Virus record (IMG/VR): IMGVR_UViG_3300033153_006411
Location: 19,135-83,134 of that record
Length of the DNA: 64,000 bases
Direction: 5' to 3' (one strand)
Source: a virus
Both the position numbers and the translations under genes were made by a program. Position 1 is the first letter of the stretch; every line of letters starts with the position of its first letter. Under the pieces are notes generated by a model, which was not told the DNA's origin, did not search any database, and was given only the letters and a program-made list of their open reading frames with translations. Of this stretch, positions 39,559 to 49,322 are shown in pieces.

Positions 39559-39570
39559 ATTTGGAATTTC

Positions 39571-39599
39571 TTGACAAAAGTCTGAGACCCCTATAAGCT
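39571..39599 (+). promoter_or_regulatory. Sigma70-like promoter
   Basis: TTCTTGACAAAAGTCTGAG context with a TATAAG/TAAGCT -10 region. It precedes the small-gene operon at 39626. Confidence 0.65.
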
Positions 39600-39625
39600 A
39601 CACGTATTAATTGAGAGGAATACAT

Positions 39626-40665: not shown

Positions 40666-41319
40666 ATGAATAACGAAAAATTAAATTTCCAAGAACCGCC
40701 GCCTGAAGGGGCGAAGGGTCTTGACGCGCACAGAGTGTTGGTGTTGAACGCCGACTACCGTCCGTTCTCTTATTACCCATTATCCACTGCCCACTGGCAG
40801 CAAGTAATGTTCTTACTCGTTAAGGGCATGACTACCGGTGTGAAACGCTTCCACATCGTTGAAGAATATGAGGATGTTTACGTGCATGGTGGTATCAACA
40901 AGGATGGTGAGCAGTCACAAGTACGGTTGCCATCTGTTGTTGCCCACATGCAGTACCTCAAGCCACCAGTGAAGGTACCGATGACAAAGTTCAACGTATT
41001 CTTGCGTGACAACTTCACCTGTCAGTATAGCGGGCAGAAGTGTACGCCAGCCCAGTTGTCGTGGGATCACGTTATTCCGCGTGCTGATGGTGGTGGTACT
41101 TCGTGGGAGAACATCGTTTCGGCTGAGCAGAAGATCAACGAACTGAAGGACGACATGTCCGTCAGGGAGTTCGAGAAGCGACACGGTTACAAGTTGCGTG
41201 CAATGCCGAAAGCCCCAACGTGGGGTGAGCTTTACGAAAAGGGCAAGCATTACCCACCACGGTACCTCCACGAAACGTGGCAGGACTACCTGTACTGGGA
41301 CACCGAGTTGGAAGACTAA
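40666..41319 (+). CDS. HNH endonuclease
   Basis: 217 residues. VFLRDNFTCQYSGQKC begins the domain, then SWDHVIPRADGGGTSWENIVSA supplies the catalytic DH and the central Asn. The second zinc Cys pair usual in this group is replaced by EQKI, so zinc binding may be partial. Such free-standing HNH proteins in phages can be homing or packaging-associated nucleases. AAAGAGG precedes the ATG. Confidence 0.85.
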   Translation: MNNEKLNFQEPPPEGAKGLDAHRVLVLNADYRPFSYYPLSTAHWQQVMFLLVKGMTTGVKRFHIVEEYEDVYVHGGINKDGEQSQVRLPSVVAHMQYLKPPVKVPMTKFNVFLRDNFTCQYSGQKCTPAQLSWDHVIPRADGGGTSWENIVSAEQKINELKDDMSVREFEKRHGYKLRAMPKAPTWGELYEKGKHYPPRYLHETWQDYLYWDTELED

Positions 41320-41708
41320 TGACCCCCTTACTCGGAAGCCAATTAAGGAAGGCAAAGTGGCCGCTGATTCTGTCAGCGGTCATTTTATTCTGTTCCGCGT
41401 TGGGGTTTATTCTAAATTCGCGAATACAGAATGCCCCCGATGAGCCCGTAGTTACGATTGAGCCCGAAGTGCCGGTAGTTCAATTACCCGACGAATGGCT
41501 TTACGTTACCACCAACAGTGTGCTATTATTCCCTGTTGTAAGTGATAAGTGTAGAATTAAGTATGCCCTCATGCAAGTACATAAGGGTACCAAAGTTTTA
41601 GTGATAGCCCGACAAGGCGAATGGGTCGAAGTCGAGCAAAATGACCAAACAGCACTACATACACACGGCTGTATTCACGAAAGTATGTTAGAGAAAAGAG
41701 ATGATTAA
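41319..41708 (+). CDS. Membrane-anchored protein with SH3-like domain
   Basis: 129 residues. One transmembrane helix (residues ~13-35) and a periplasmic-type part in which TNSVLLFPVV...GTKVLVIARQGEWVEVE resembles a bacterial SH3 domain. Starts at TAATG after the HNH gene. Confidence 0.6.
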   Translation: MTPLLGSQLRKAKWPLILSAVILFCSALGFILNSRIQNAPDEPVVTIEPEVPVVQLPDEWLYVTTNSVLLFPVVSDKCRIKYALMQVHKGTKVLVIARQGEWVEVEQNDQTALHTHGCIHESMLEKRDD

Positions 41709-41946
41709 AATTTATTCAACAGCGTTCTGTGGTTTTTGCACAAAGGCAAAAGAACTACTAGACGAAATGAACATTCCGTATGAAGACATCAACATCTACG
41801 AAGATGCTGATGCCATGGAAGTCATGCGCGAGATGGAATTTACTACGGTTCCACAAATCCTAGTCGAAGACATGTGGATTGGTGGTTACGTTGAATTAAC
41901 AGAGATGCAAGAGGCCGGTGCCCTCGCCCACCTTATCGAAGGATAA
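41701..41946 (+). CDS. Glutaredoxin
   Basis: 81 residues, thioredoxin fold. Active site CGFC (10-13), cis-Pro in TTVPQILV and the GGYVEL glutathione-side motif. Phage glutaredoxins usually support ribonucleotide reductase. It overlaps the preceding gene by 8 nt. Confidence 0.92.
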   Translation: MIKIYSTAFCGFCTKAKELLDEMNIPYEDINIYEDADAMEVMREMEFTTVPQILVEDMWIGGYVELTEMQEAGALAHLIEG

Positions 41947-42773: not shown

Positions 42774-42789
42774 TAAGCCTATGAATCAT

Positions 42790-43222
42790 GATGTGGGTGG
42801 AAGACCAGCCCGATACCGTCGGTTGACCTTTCAATTGCAGTCACCGCCCGCATCAACTTATTACGGTAGCTTGGAAGACCGATGGCGCACAGTCGTTTAG
42901 ACCCTTCGATCAATGTCACCAAGCCGCCAATTTATCAGAGGTAGTTGGAAGACCTGAAAATTTTTGTCGCGTGACCCTCTCGTGAATGTCACCAACTACC
43001 TCAACTTATTACGATGCGTGCGAAAGACCTCGTAAACCAAGTTGTATGACCAATGGCAAATAGTCATCGCTTGCATCAATTTATTACGGTAGCTCGGAAG
43101 ACCAGTGTTGTAGTGTCGAATGACCTCTTCAAGATCGTCACCGAGCTATCAACTTATTAAGGTAGTTGGAAGACCCTATTGGTGTAGTCAAATGACCGGA
43201 TACGTTTAGTCGCCGACTACCT
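42790..43222 (+). ncRNA. Array A: six tandem two-loop RNA units
   Basis: Units begin at 42790, 42865, 42938, 43013, 43088 and 43160, each 62-65 nt, separated by linkers close to AAYTTATTN. Each folds as an outer stem of 9-11 pairs, AAGACC-N11-GTC, a 3-4 nt joint, (T/A)GACC-N11-GTC(A/G), then the returning stem. All twelve loops are exactly 11 nt and differ from each other. Stems vary in sequence but stay paired, for example GATGTGGGTGG/CCGCCCGCATC and GAGGTAGTTGG/CCAACTACCTC. G-U pairs form on the plus strand. I know no described RNA family with this plan. Confidence 0.87.
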
Positions 43223-43299
43223 TTACCAAATCGGCACGTGCTGATAAGCCGGTGGACTAATCCACCATCATATTGTTCATTGGGAACAGGAGTATGAAG

Positions 43300-43899
43300 A
43301 TGGAAAACAATACAATCACGACCGTCAATGATCTCATCCGCATCGCGGATGATAATCATCCCACAGACACCAATGCCGCTGTAGCTGCTGTCATCAAAGC
43401 GATGAAGAAACACAAGCAAAAAGATGACATGCAGGAGTTGCTTATCTCCGCAGGAATCAAGTTGCTTCTGAACGGCATTCGTTCCGAGAACAAATTCAAA
43501 CCCTCACCTGTTGACGGGGTCACCACATTCGAGAGCCATAAAAACAAGTCCGACACCAAAGGCCACAGCACCATCCGCCGTGCCACTCTTAAAACCACAG
43601 AACAGCGTGAAGGTACACGTAATGACATCATCGAGACCATACTCGATGAGGTTTATGGCTCCAACGGATACCGCATGAGCATCGGAAATGCAACCAAGCC
43701 GGTACTCCGCCACTGGGCTAAAATCGAAGGCAAGCAGGCGATTGGTCATACCCGCAACTATGATTTGTTCACTGCCATCGCAGATAGACTGCCCGATGAC
43801 ACCACCAAGGTTGTTGAGTCACTGGACGCTGACGACGTACTGTCTATCAAGTGTAAGACTCATGCAGTCGCCAAGGGTGAAACTCATGCAGCCGCGTAG
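43300..43899 (+). CDS. Hypothetical protein inside the RNA-array locus
   Basis: About 199 residues. AGGAG lies 7 nt before the ATG at 43300; ATG 43294 is too close to it. The N-terminal third is helical, a basic linker follows (KNKSDTKGHSTIRRATLK) and the C-terminal part has IIETILDEVYGSNGYRM and TRNYDLFTAIADRLPDD. I recognise no family and see no RuvC-like DEDD residues. It overlaps the next gene by 14 nt, so the two are expressed together and lie between the two hairpin arrays. Confidence 0.75.
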   Translation: MENNTITTVNDLIRIADDNHPTDTNAAVAAVIKAMKKHKQKDDMQELLISAGIKLLLNGIRSENKFKPSPVDGVTTFESHKNKSDTKGHSTIRRATLKTTEQREGTRNDIIETILDEVYGSNGYRMSIGNATKPVLRHWAKIEGKQAIGHTRNYDLFTAIADRLPDDTTKVVESLDADDVLSIKCKTHAVAKGETHAAA

Positions 43900-44683
43900 C
43901 CAAACGGTGGAGACGCTTAAGAAGATGTGTCACTTTCGACGTGTCCATCTTCGACAGCGCAACGCTCTTGTCCTTTGTATTCAAGGCTTGATACGTTCAG
44001 AACTGGGCTTTCGATCCATCGGTCCAAATGATGAAACCGCCACGGAAAAGAAAGCACGGGAAAAGGTGAACAAGGAAGCCAAGACTCGTGGTGATAGAAT
44101 TATTTCATCATTGAATGGTAAGAAGCTCGCCAAACCACTAGTCGATATCGACCAGAGCATTTATGAGTATATGCTCATCAACTGCAAAGGAATACTCGAT
44201 GGTATCGATATCATGAATTCTGACCTGAAGTCTAAGGACAAGGCCATCGAGAAGAAAGCCAAAGAGTTGCCAGAGTGTGAATGGTGGACTAGCCATAAGG
44301 GTCTGTCAGCTAAAGGTCTTGGTTTGCTAACAGGTGACGCTGGTGATATCGCCCGCTTCGACAAGGAGTCGCAACTATGGAAGCGCATGGGTATGGCAGT
44401 TATCGATGGTAAGCGTCAACGACGTGTGGCTGGCAATGCTGCGAAGGCAATCGAGCATGGATACAACTCCGACAATCGCGCCACCATGTTCACCATCGTG
44501 TCCAGTCTCAACATGGAACGCAACAAGGAATGCTACGCTGACCATCCGTGGTTCAACCTAGCTCGTGATTACAAGGAACGTAAACTGGCTGAAGGTGATA
44601 GACCATGCATTGCCGAAGCACGCGCCAACCGTAGAATGGGAAAGCGAATACTCCGTGATCTCTACTTGCAGGTACATGCATGA
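43886..44683 (+). CDS. IS110-type Transposase_20-like protein
   Basis: About 265 residues from the ATG at 43886, preceded by AAGGGTGA. After a helical, coiled segment (near 90-130), GLSAKGLGLLTGDAGDIARF then ESQLWKRMGM follows the Transposase_20 pattern of IS110 enzymes (helix-hairpin-helix glycines, GD...RF, QL....G). A C-terminal region NRATMF...HPWF...YKERK..GDRP...RRMGKRILRDLY matches the order seen at IS110 C-termini. The IS110 N-terminal RuvC-like DEDD domain is absent and I cannot place the catalytic Ser. IS110 recombinases use a two-loop bridge RNA; flanking arrays make a guide role attractive but unproven. Confidence 0.65.
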   Translation: MQPRSQTVETLKKMCHFRRVHLRQRNALVLCIQGLIRSELGFRSIGPNDETATEKKAREKVNKEAKTRGDRIISSLNGKKLAKPLVDIDQSIYEYMLINCKGILDGIDIMNSDLKSKDKAIEKKAKELPECEWWTSHKGLSAKGLGLLTGDAGDIARFDKESQLWKRMGMAVIDGKRQRRVAGNAAKAIEHGYNSDNRATMFTIVSSLNMERNKECYADHPWFNLARDYKERKLAEGDRPCIAEARANRRMGKRILRDLYLQVHA

Positions 44684-44690
44684 AGTAACC

Positions 44691-44973
44691 TGATGCGAGA
44701 GGAAGACCTATCTCGACTAGTCGTATGACCGTCCAGCCGCCGTCACCTCTCGCGTCAATTTATTCCGGTAGCACGGAAGACCAATCGATAAATGTCGAAT
44801 GACCTTGTGAACTTTGTCGCCGAGCTACCAATTTACCCGATGACTTGGAAGACCCGTAGAGCATAGTCGAATGACCACAGTTCGCCAGTCCCAAGTCATC
44901 AACTTATTTCGGTAGCTCGAAAGACCTTATGAGGCGAGTCAAATGACCCATACTGAGCAGTCATCGAGCTACC
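44691..44973 (+). ncRNA. Array B: four tandem two-loop RNA units
   Basis: Units begin at 44691, 44767, 44839 and 44911 with the same AAGACC-N11-GTC / TGACC-N11-GTC core and the same linkers as array A. All eight loops are 11 nt. Outer stems are again compensated, such as GCGAGAGG/CCTCTCGC, GATGACTTGG/CCAAGTCATC and GGTAGCTCGA/TCGAGCTACC. It starts 8 nt after the Transposase_20-like stop, so it is probably the 3' part of that transcript. The last unit ends 4 nt before a convergent gene. Confidence 0.87.
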
Positions 44974-44976
44974 AAC

Positions 44977-45761: not shown

Positions 45762-45773
45762 GATTGATATTTC

Positions 45774-45802
45774 TTGACAAAAGTTCAATAACCTGCTAAG
45801 GT
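45774..45802 (+). promoter_or_regulatory. Sigma70-like promoter
   Basis: TTGACA, 17-nt spacer, TAAGGT in the recurrent TTTCTTGACAAAAGTTC context. It drives the operon from 45870. Confidence 0.8.
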
Positions 45803-45869
45803 ACGCGTATTGGCTAGGAAAGTCAAATGCAAATGCCACGGATTAGCACAAAGCGAGATGGAGAGAAAT

Positions 45870-47849: not shown

Positions 47850-49322
47850 ATGCAACCATATGAAGTAATCAGCCTCCTCGAAGGCACATCAAGCAAGACC
47901 GAAAAAGAAGCCATTGTAACTCAGGCGTTCCACGCTGGTAGTTTTGATTTCTTCCGTGGTGCTCAACTCGCATACGACAAGAAGGTGACCTTTGGTACCA
48001 AGACTGTCCCCGATCACAAAACCCTCCCCGTCCTCGATACGTCTTTGACGTTCGACGATTTTACTATCCTCACCGATATGATGCGTAAGCGTCACGTTAC
48101 CGGTGGTGATGCTGTTACGGCGATGGAAGTTACTGCTGAACATTGTGACGAACTGATGTGGGAAGGTTTCTACAAGCGTGTCCTGATGAAGGACTTGCGT
48201 TGTGGTGTAACTGAATCCACTATCAACAAGGCTCTGAAAGTCATCGCCAAGACCGACGTGACTGCGAAGGACTACTTGATTCCAGTACACACCTGTCAGC
48301 TTGCTTATGACTGTAATCAAAAGCCAAAATTCATGACAGGCAAAAAGACCCTTGACCTGAAACTCGATGGAGTTCGTATCAACGCCGAATGTGACATTGA
48401 TACTAAGGAAGTCATTCTGAAATCCCGCAATGGTCTTACCAAAGAAAACTTTCCGCACATCAACAAACTGTTGGAAGAAAAACTGATTCCGCATCTGACC
48501 CGCAGTGTTATGATTGATGGCGAAATGACTGCCAAAGATTTCAAAGCCATCATGTCGCAACTGAATCGTAAAAGCAATGTCAAGACTGCCGACATGCACT
48601 TTGCCATTTTCGACTGCGTTCCGCTGGATGACTTCCGCAGCGGTAAATGTGATCTGGCCCAAGAAGAACGCGACAAGGCTTCTAAGTGGGCTGTCCGTAC
48701 CGTGAATGACCCTCATATGTTTTACATCGAAAAAGAGATAGTCGATCTTGATACTCCTGAAGGTCTGGAACGCGTTGATGAATTTCACGAGGATGCCACA
48801 CTTGCTGGTTTCGAGGGGACTATGATTAAAGACCCCAAGGCACCTTACACCACCAAACGTTCCACCGCATGGCTGAAGAAGAAGCCGTGGGTTACGGTAG
48901 ACCTTCAAATCATCGAGTGTAAACTTGGTAATGACGGTAAGAAATATCAAAACACCCTCGGTCGCATTGACTGTGCCGGTTACGACCACGAACAGGAGAA
49001 ATTCATTCGTGTAGATGTCGGAGAAGGCACCAAAGGATCAATGCCCGACAAGATGCGTGATTTGCTTTGGTCAATCCGTCATCTCCTTCCGGGGCTTACG
49101 ATTGAGGTTCTGGCTCACGAGGTATCCGAGAATAAGGATGGCGAATACAGTTTGCGCCACTCGCGGATAGTGAACTTTCGTCCCGACAAGGACGGAACCG
49201 ATGAATACCGCGAGAGCCTTGCGATGATCAAATCCGAATTGGGTATTTCATTGGCGGAGAACGATCTGTTCATCGATCTGTTCGACCATGCAGCTATCGA
49301 AGCTATCGCGGCAGCATCGTAA
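47850..49322 (+). CDS. ATP-dependent DNA ligase
   Basis: 490 residues. Motif I is KLDGVR with Lys171, followed by motif III FAIFDC, motif IV EGTMIKD and motif V WLKKKP. The N-terminal helical DNA-binding region (1-150) and the C-terminal OB-type domain are both present, as in T4 gp30-type ligases. It seals nicks in phage DNA replication and repair. AGGAGAGA precedes the ATG. Its stop overlaps the next gene (TAATG). Confidence 0.93.
   Translation: MQPYEVISLLEGTSSKTEKEAIVTQAFHAGSFDFFRGAQLAYDKKVTFGTKTVPDHKTLPVLDTSLTFDDFTILTDMMRKRHVTGGDAVTAMEVTAEHCDELMWEGFYKRVLMKDLRCGVTESTINKALKVIAKTDVTAKDYLIPVHTCQLAYDCNQKPKFMTGKKTLDLKLDGVRINAECDIDTKEVILKSRNGLTKENFPHINKLLEEKLIPHLTRSVMIDGEMTAKDFKAIMSQLNRKSNVKTADMHFAIFDCVPLDDFRSGKCDLAQEERDKASKWAVRTVNDPHMFYIEKEIVDLDTPEGLERVDEFHEDATLAGFEGTMIKDPKAPYTTKRSTAWLKKKPWVTVDLQIIECKLGNDGKKYQNTLGRIDCAGYDHEQEKFIRVDVGEGTKGSMPDKMRDLLWSIRHLLPGLTIEVLAHEVSENKDGEYSLRHSRIVNFRPDKDGTDEYRESLAMIKSELGISLAENDLFIDLFDHAAIEAIAAAS

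Follow-up and report, generated by a model that had tools for sequence, protein, structure and literature searches.

Profile comparisons place the small gene directly upstream of tasA in the window studied here (the whole stretch of viral DNA that was analyzed, 64,000 nt long) in a very divergent but recognizable protein family whose members accompany tasA, mostly sitting immediately 5' of it and in many cases overlapping it. That this is a true partner gene, belonging with tasA and the arrays around it as the original prediction supposed, is supported by a search in the reverse direction, in which every confident partner match had a tasA nearby. In what we regard as an evenly balanced judgment, the partner would be an accessory, non-enzymatic subunit of a stem-loop TasA-tigRNA complex, co-translated with TasA. 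Coordinates of the locus are given in Table 1.

Table 1. Features of the stem-loop TIGR-TasA locus, in window positions
Feature	Position	Strand	Basis
5' stem-loop TIGR array, 6 units, period about 73 nt	42788..43225	+	motif and repeats
Example unit core, AAGACC-11-nt spacer A-GTC GGT TGACC-11-nt spacer B-GTC	42801..42842	+	complementary stem arms flank the core
tasA partner gene	43300..43899	+	ORF call, family profile, start context
Overlap of the partner stop with the tasA start, 14 nt	43886..43899	+	sequence; relatives overlap by 4-14 nt
tasA, solo Nop-domain protein, 265 aa, without RuvC or HNH	43886..44683	+	ORF, structure-chain and profile matches
3' stem-loop TIGR array, 4 units, period about 72 nt	44690..44975	+	motif and repeats

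The partner frame and its overlap with the second gene stood as first described when the open reading frame and start context were inspected. The protein is best read as 199 aa from ATG 43300 to the stop at 43899, because an AGGAG lies 7 nt upstream of that start and is too close to the in-frame ATG 43294, from which a 201-aa version (P0001) begins. An AAGG precedes the tasA ATG at 43886, and from the overlap we infer that translation of the two genes is probably coupled. Homology argues that the frame is truly coding, since a profile built without the window protein recovers it (E = 7.6e-7). The gene also remains without a named family: nothing matched in Pfam, PADLOC or curated NCBIfam, the best PHROG reached E = 0.037, and similarity of P0001 to ParA-type proteins was confined to weak, single-member matches (E = 0.03 in NCBIfam and 1.3 in the PDB). 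Searches for close relatives gave nothing usable for P0001 or the window TasA (P0002) among viral contigs and plasmids, nor for P0001 among phages; P0004 had no match among plasmids, and megablast of the locus region against phages found none either.

The neighboring gene had been described as Transposase_20-like; the matches below identify its product as TasA rather than an IS110 transposase. P0002 alone matched the TasR chain 9mty (E = 2.8e-6), and a profile of 18 TasA relatives (A7) matched both 9mty (E = 2.3e-17) and TasH 21kl (E = 2.1e-7); 9mty, whose entry is named as an IS110-type transposase, was taken as TasR from its chain length and title. The Nop domain that serves as the criterion for Tas proteins was thus found in the window protein both with the profile and with P0002 alone. 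The N-terminal nuclease domain is absent, the alignable region starts at the coiled coil, and no nuclease family matched P0002, in agreement with the earlier supposition that the second protein might lack a nuclease domain. Because a Nop-domain match is combined with the lack of an N-terminal nuclease, we assign P0002 to TasA and not to TasR or TasH. The Transposase_20 label is explained by the homologous RNA-binding C-terminal domain that the window TasA has in common with IS110 transposases; unlike these, P0002 has no N-terminal DEDD/RuvC domain, and its locus carries a guide array instead of one bridge RNA. In some related loci the tasA frame stays open through the stem-loop array (L020:4142-4784, L012:4302-4944 and L034:5440-5740, with its 3' end), so that TasA read from the coupled ATG in these three would gain a long array-encoded tail with repeats of roughly 31-44 aa.

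The gene pair lies between two arrays, as had been noted, with six units upstream and four downstream. In all 10 hairpin units, GACC and GTC boxes bracket each of two 11-nt spacers, in the layout stem-GAAGACC-11 nt-GTC(nnn)TGACC-11 nt-GTC-stem. The pattern AAGACC-N11-GTC-NNN-TGACC-N11-GTC, allowing at most 2 mismatches, occurred 9 times in the window against 0.02 expected, the tenth unit having a 1-nt insertion, and 5' arms paired with their own 3' arms at 102 of 110 positions (73.6 on average after permutation; none of 20,000 permutations did as well). These are stem-loop TIGR arrays as delineated in the main text of Faure et al. 2025 (PMC12045711). The TIGR-TasA contig from the Peromyscus leucopus gut in that text is a close likeness, with a solo Nop-domain TasA, subarrays around the gene, hairpin units, two spacers (8-12 nt there) and box C/D-like motifs; it differs in that no partner is described for it there, whereas in the loci reported here a partner is nearly always present. 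Spacer targets in the virus's own 83-kb contig did not rise above shuffled-spacer controls, and the target is therefore likely to lie elsewhere. A scan of viral contigs with the array motif gave three matches, all judged to be chance.

The partner family was reached through tasA: a Rhizobium phage relative led to a two-sequence alignment, which led to 17 viral contigs and, separately, to 4 more. With an iterative profile, a partner homologue was found in 17/17 of these alphaproteobacterial-type contigs and in 3/3 testable contigs of the second set, two of which duplicate the first set and leave one independent case; the fourth (L028) begins inside tasA and was left out. Partner and tasA overlap by 14 nt in the window and by 4 (L008), 8 (L009, L010, L015 and L017), 10 (L011), 11 (L020) and 14 nt (L012) in relatives. 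Rhizobium-type loci have a gap of roughly 120-690 nt between the two genes, with array units inside the gap where it was inspected, and in L024 (4278-6524) the order is reversed, with the partner downstream of tasA. Mean identity over 18 loci was about 24% for the partner family and 42% for TasA. P0001 and P0003 showed no similarity by direct BLAST, and their kinship rests on profiles. Distances within the two families correlate (mirror-tree r = 0.705; 0 of 5000 permutations as high), a value computed without a control gene that could reflect shared phage history. One phage record (L003), an IS110-like fragment without a TasA-profile match, was dropped; some tables also omit the near-duplicates L013 (of L012) and L025/L026 (the contigs of L023/L019), repeats of the same loci (L029-L033 and L035), and loci near-identical to others (L039-L041).

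Actinophage loci extended the family. Searching with a relative of the window TasA gave matches in 80 phage records (74 from mycobacteriophages). Two tasA genes, from Mycobacterium phage Euphoria and Rhodococcus phage Peregrin, brought in 47 further contigs; with L048-L050 these make 50 loci, a count that overstates the independent cases because many mycobacteriophage loci are near-identical. When all ORFs of a locus (about 78 each) were scored against the alphaproteobacterial/window profile, the top score fell on the ORF immediately 5' of tas in 37 of the 50, and the iterated profile detected the partner in 47/50 at E < 1e-3, two of these not being directly adjacent by called start. A profile built from actinophages only ranked partner ORFs on top and matched the window partner at E = 0.0056. 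Partner-like genes stand beside tasA in Peregrin (gp186, 172 aa) and in L078. In Euphoria, five stem-loop units lie between the partner-like gene and tasA (gp71-gp70; L049:3084-4588), and the "transposase" genes of Cluster A mycobacteriophages are TasA homologues.

Starting instead from a partner alignment, we recovered 10 viral contigs (4 of them new), 10/10 with tasA, and 3 bacterial genomes (Rhizobium esperanzae, Metarhizobium album and Shinella sumterensis), 3/3 with tasA, although the three bacterial loci are near-identical to loci already in the set; taken together, tasA stood near 13/13 confident partner matches. Homologues occurring widely without the arrays or the second gene, which would have spoken against the original prediction, did not appear, with one probable exception. 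In one Hyphomicrobiales genome, a homologue with 34.5 bits against the rebuilt profile (weak before) has no tasA within 18.5 kb (L103:9047-9631); it is probably a stand-alone partner gene, and the link to tasA is therefore strong but not strictly obligate. The two other weak matches, L046 and L047 (16-20 bits), likewise have no tasA within the roughly 3 kb of sequence covered. An order-level search of 397 genomes gave a strong match in the seed genome only, and stand-alone homologues may be under-counted in it because at most 8 candidates were scored per genome. A search of genome contigs with alignment A3 returned 319 pattern stretches and no relative.

Phage genes are dense and often overlap, and an unrelated gene could have come to lie beside tasA fortuitously. 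We give this next to no credence, however, as the adjacent ORF is the best match in most of the 50 actinophage loci, tasA recurs in the reverse search, and the family spans alphaproteobacterial and actinobacterial phages. Alternatively, the partner may regulate its own locus, binding the tasA operon or the arrays or keeping TasA inactive, without a role in targeting. Such a regulator would suit the order of partner then tasA with overlapping ends in many loci, the array between the two genes in Rhizobium and mycobacterial phages, and the probable stand-alone homologue; it is harder to reconcile with the reversed order in L024 and with overlap loci, which have no regulatory DNA between the genes, and we consider it unlikely.

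Array type bears on the role of the partner more directly. Stem-loop units were seen beside partner and tasA in Euphoria, Peregrin, L078, L055 and Gordonia phage Morrissey (partner match, 2e-30), stem-loop arrays having been directly seen in a subset of loci. In contrast, no partner was found in any of four dual-repeat loci: two Tas loci designated L050 (Microcystis phage Mvi-JY20) and L099, Salicola phage CGphi29, named as a TasH locus in the text of PMC12045711, and Acidianus tailed spindle virus, in which a 212-aa ORF scoring 5.4 bits (E = 0.015, from a small set) was treated as not significant. Of 74 loci, the dual-repeat test picks out L050 alone; L099 escapes it and was assigned by visual inspection. 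In Mvi-JY20, a clear dual-repeat TIGR array, made up of ATGCGAGCC and ACGAAACCC blocks and spacers of about 9 nt, follows just after an unannotated tasA (L050:4505-4830). No partner was detected in L097, which has tasA and hairpins, or in L085, a tasA locus without a visible array. The pattern suggests a clean split between one-protein dual-repeat and two-protein stem-loop systems. Since the partner is tied to tigRNAs whose edge is a helix, the simplest reading is a subunit that recognizes the stem or an exposed TasA surface, and its presence beside TasA across very different hairpin-guide phages suggests that two proteins, not one, are probably needed.

Fold comparisons with the predicted structure of the partner, in which an L7Ae-like fold was also at issue, found nothing convincing of any kind. 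The window protein (mean pLDDT, 77.7; pTM, 0.49) models with helices at residues 11-67, a disordered basic stretch at about 76-91, and then a helix, a beta hairpin and three helices; the model of the L014 relative reached pLDDT 85.8 and pTM 0.42, and the low pTM of both makes the relative placing of parts unreliable. Overall, the models depict the family as all-helical, apart from a small hairpin. Among solved structures there was no convincing PDB match (best E, 0.62 and 3.5); matches to the I-CreI fold (E = 0.6-2) were noise, and VIA-align Z scores did not exceed 5.8, reached with the helical region of photosystem I PsaF, a level that helical proteins would show by chance. Predicted viral structures matched better (A0A2U8UKM3, E = 9.7e-3, prob 0.96; A0A7S5QUW9, E = 0.032; Q854P2 of Mycobacterium phage Omega, E = 0.054), which would fit the partner-like genes in Peregrin and L078.

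The original prediction offered RNA binding, processing or catalysis as what the partner might supply. In an alignment of 23 members, 70% identity was reached only in scattered A, L, R, W, T and Y columns and in none with an acidic residue, His or Cys; this lack of conserved catalytic-type residues is evidence against an enzyme and weighs against catalysis. Processing is also less likely, as stem-loop arrays were processed in E. coli with TasA in Faure et al. 2025 (PMC12045711), whose main text mentions no partner. We therefore hold it very improbable that the partner is a nuclease, whether an RNase for array processing or an enzyme that cleaves the target: stem-loop pre-tigRNAs must be cut by a processing enzyme that is unknown in the same text, but, besides the residues and the E. 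coli result, the partner has no nuclease family or convincing fold match. RNA binding by the partner is possible.

Rather doubtful, but less so than a regulator, is a partner that acts as an effector arm, brought by TasA to a DNA site where it binds or spreads or recruits another protein for silencing or partition. An effector is wanted, given a TasA without nuclease; the linker of the window partner is basic (residues 66-115, pI 9.7), although basicity is not universal in a family whose pI runs from 5.7 to 10.3; and the operon position is the same as in TasParB operons, for which such a role is proposed (PMC12045711, fig. S14) and which likewise have a small protein gene in the tasA operon with arrays flanking. 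TasParB loci as described there, however, have a ParB domain and dual-repeat arrays, while the partner accompanies stem-loop arrays, has no recognized DNA-binding fold, and shows no ParB match in Pfam, either in 19 members (at E <= 1) or in P0001. DUF6793 matched 1 of the 19 (3.1e-4), which was treated as chance.

For the accessory subunit favored here, we propose the following course. Coupled translation would yield partner and TasA together, and through its basic linker and its C-terminal domain, which is helical, the partner would contact TasA, the base-paired guide stem, or both. TasA would need both box C/D sites of its guide RNA to be fixed, and in stem-loop guide RNAs the base-paired stem would replace the compact "edge repeat" of dual-repeat tigRNAs; contact with the partner would then stabilize the guide or the dimer. 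The target would be about 22 bp long, one strand pairing with each of the two 11-nt spacers, and the complex would bind and bend DNA without cutting it, so that a competing element, or a host locus, would be blocked from being expressed or replicated. Binding of the RNA stem by the partner is thus what we infer, and by analogy its role may be like that of an added RNA-binding protein such as L7Ae in box C/D snoRNPs, to which it would be unrelated. Like the box C/D snoRNP (Nop5 with L7Ae), the system has a Nop-domain protein and a dual guide with C/D boxes, and the analogy proposed is that a further small protein sits on the stem of the RNA; unlike it, the partner has no L7Ae sequence match (no L7Ae-type Pfam match in 19 members), there is no methyltransferase, and the targets would be DNA.

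More tentatively, and with less confidence than in the subunit itself, stem-loop TIGR systems at large may be two-protein RNPs in which a fast-evolving subunit, missed by identity-based mining, recognizes the guide stem in an independent L7Ae-like role and sets this branch apart from single-protein dual-repeat systems; dozens of mycobacteriophages would then carry the machine, with tasA annotated as "transposase" or "hypothetical protein." The TIGR-Tas paper clustered neighbors at 50% identity and, in its main text, reports only a ParB-like partner (PMC12045711); clustering at that level would probably miss the present family because of its low average identity. The partner is not described in the literature searched on TIGR-Tas, tigRNA and mycobacteriophage IS110, a search lying mostly outside subscription papers and preprints; the family next to tasA may be a new observation, and prior description elsewhere is possible. 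The function of nuclease-less TasA is named an open question of the TIGR field in the text of PMC12045711. A conserved second protein offers a concrete handle on it, and reconstitutions with TasA alone may miss an essential subunit. As mycobacteriophages that are cultivable and already sequenced (Euphoria gp71-gp70 and relatives) carry the partner, and their genes can be deleted, the question is directly testable.

Elsewhere in the window, a 48-nt repeat, 75% identical between 39561-39608 and 45764-45811, has a TTGACA-type core before two phage genes and looks like a shared promoter. Genes recognized by eye around the locus encode an HNH-type protein (40666-41319), a glutaredoxin-like protein (41701-41946) and a DNA ligase-like protein (47850-49322), and the window carries 12 tRNA genes.
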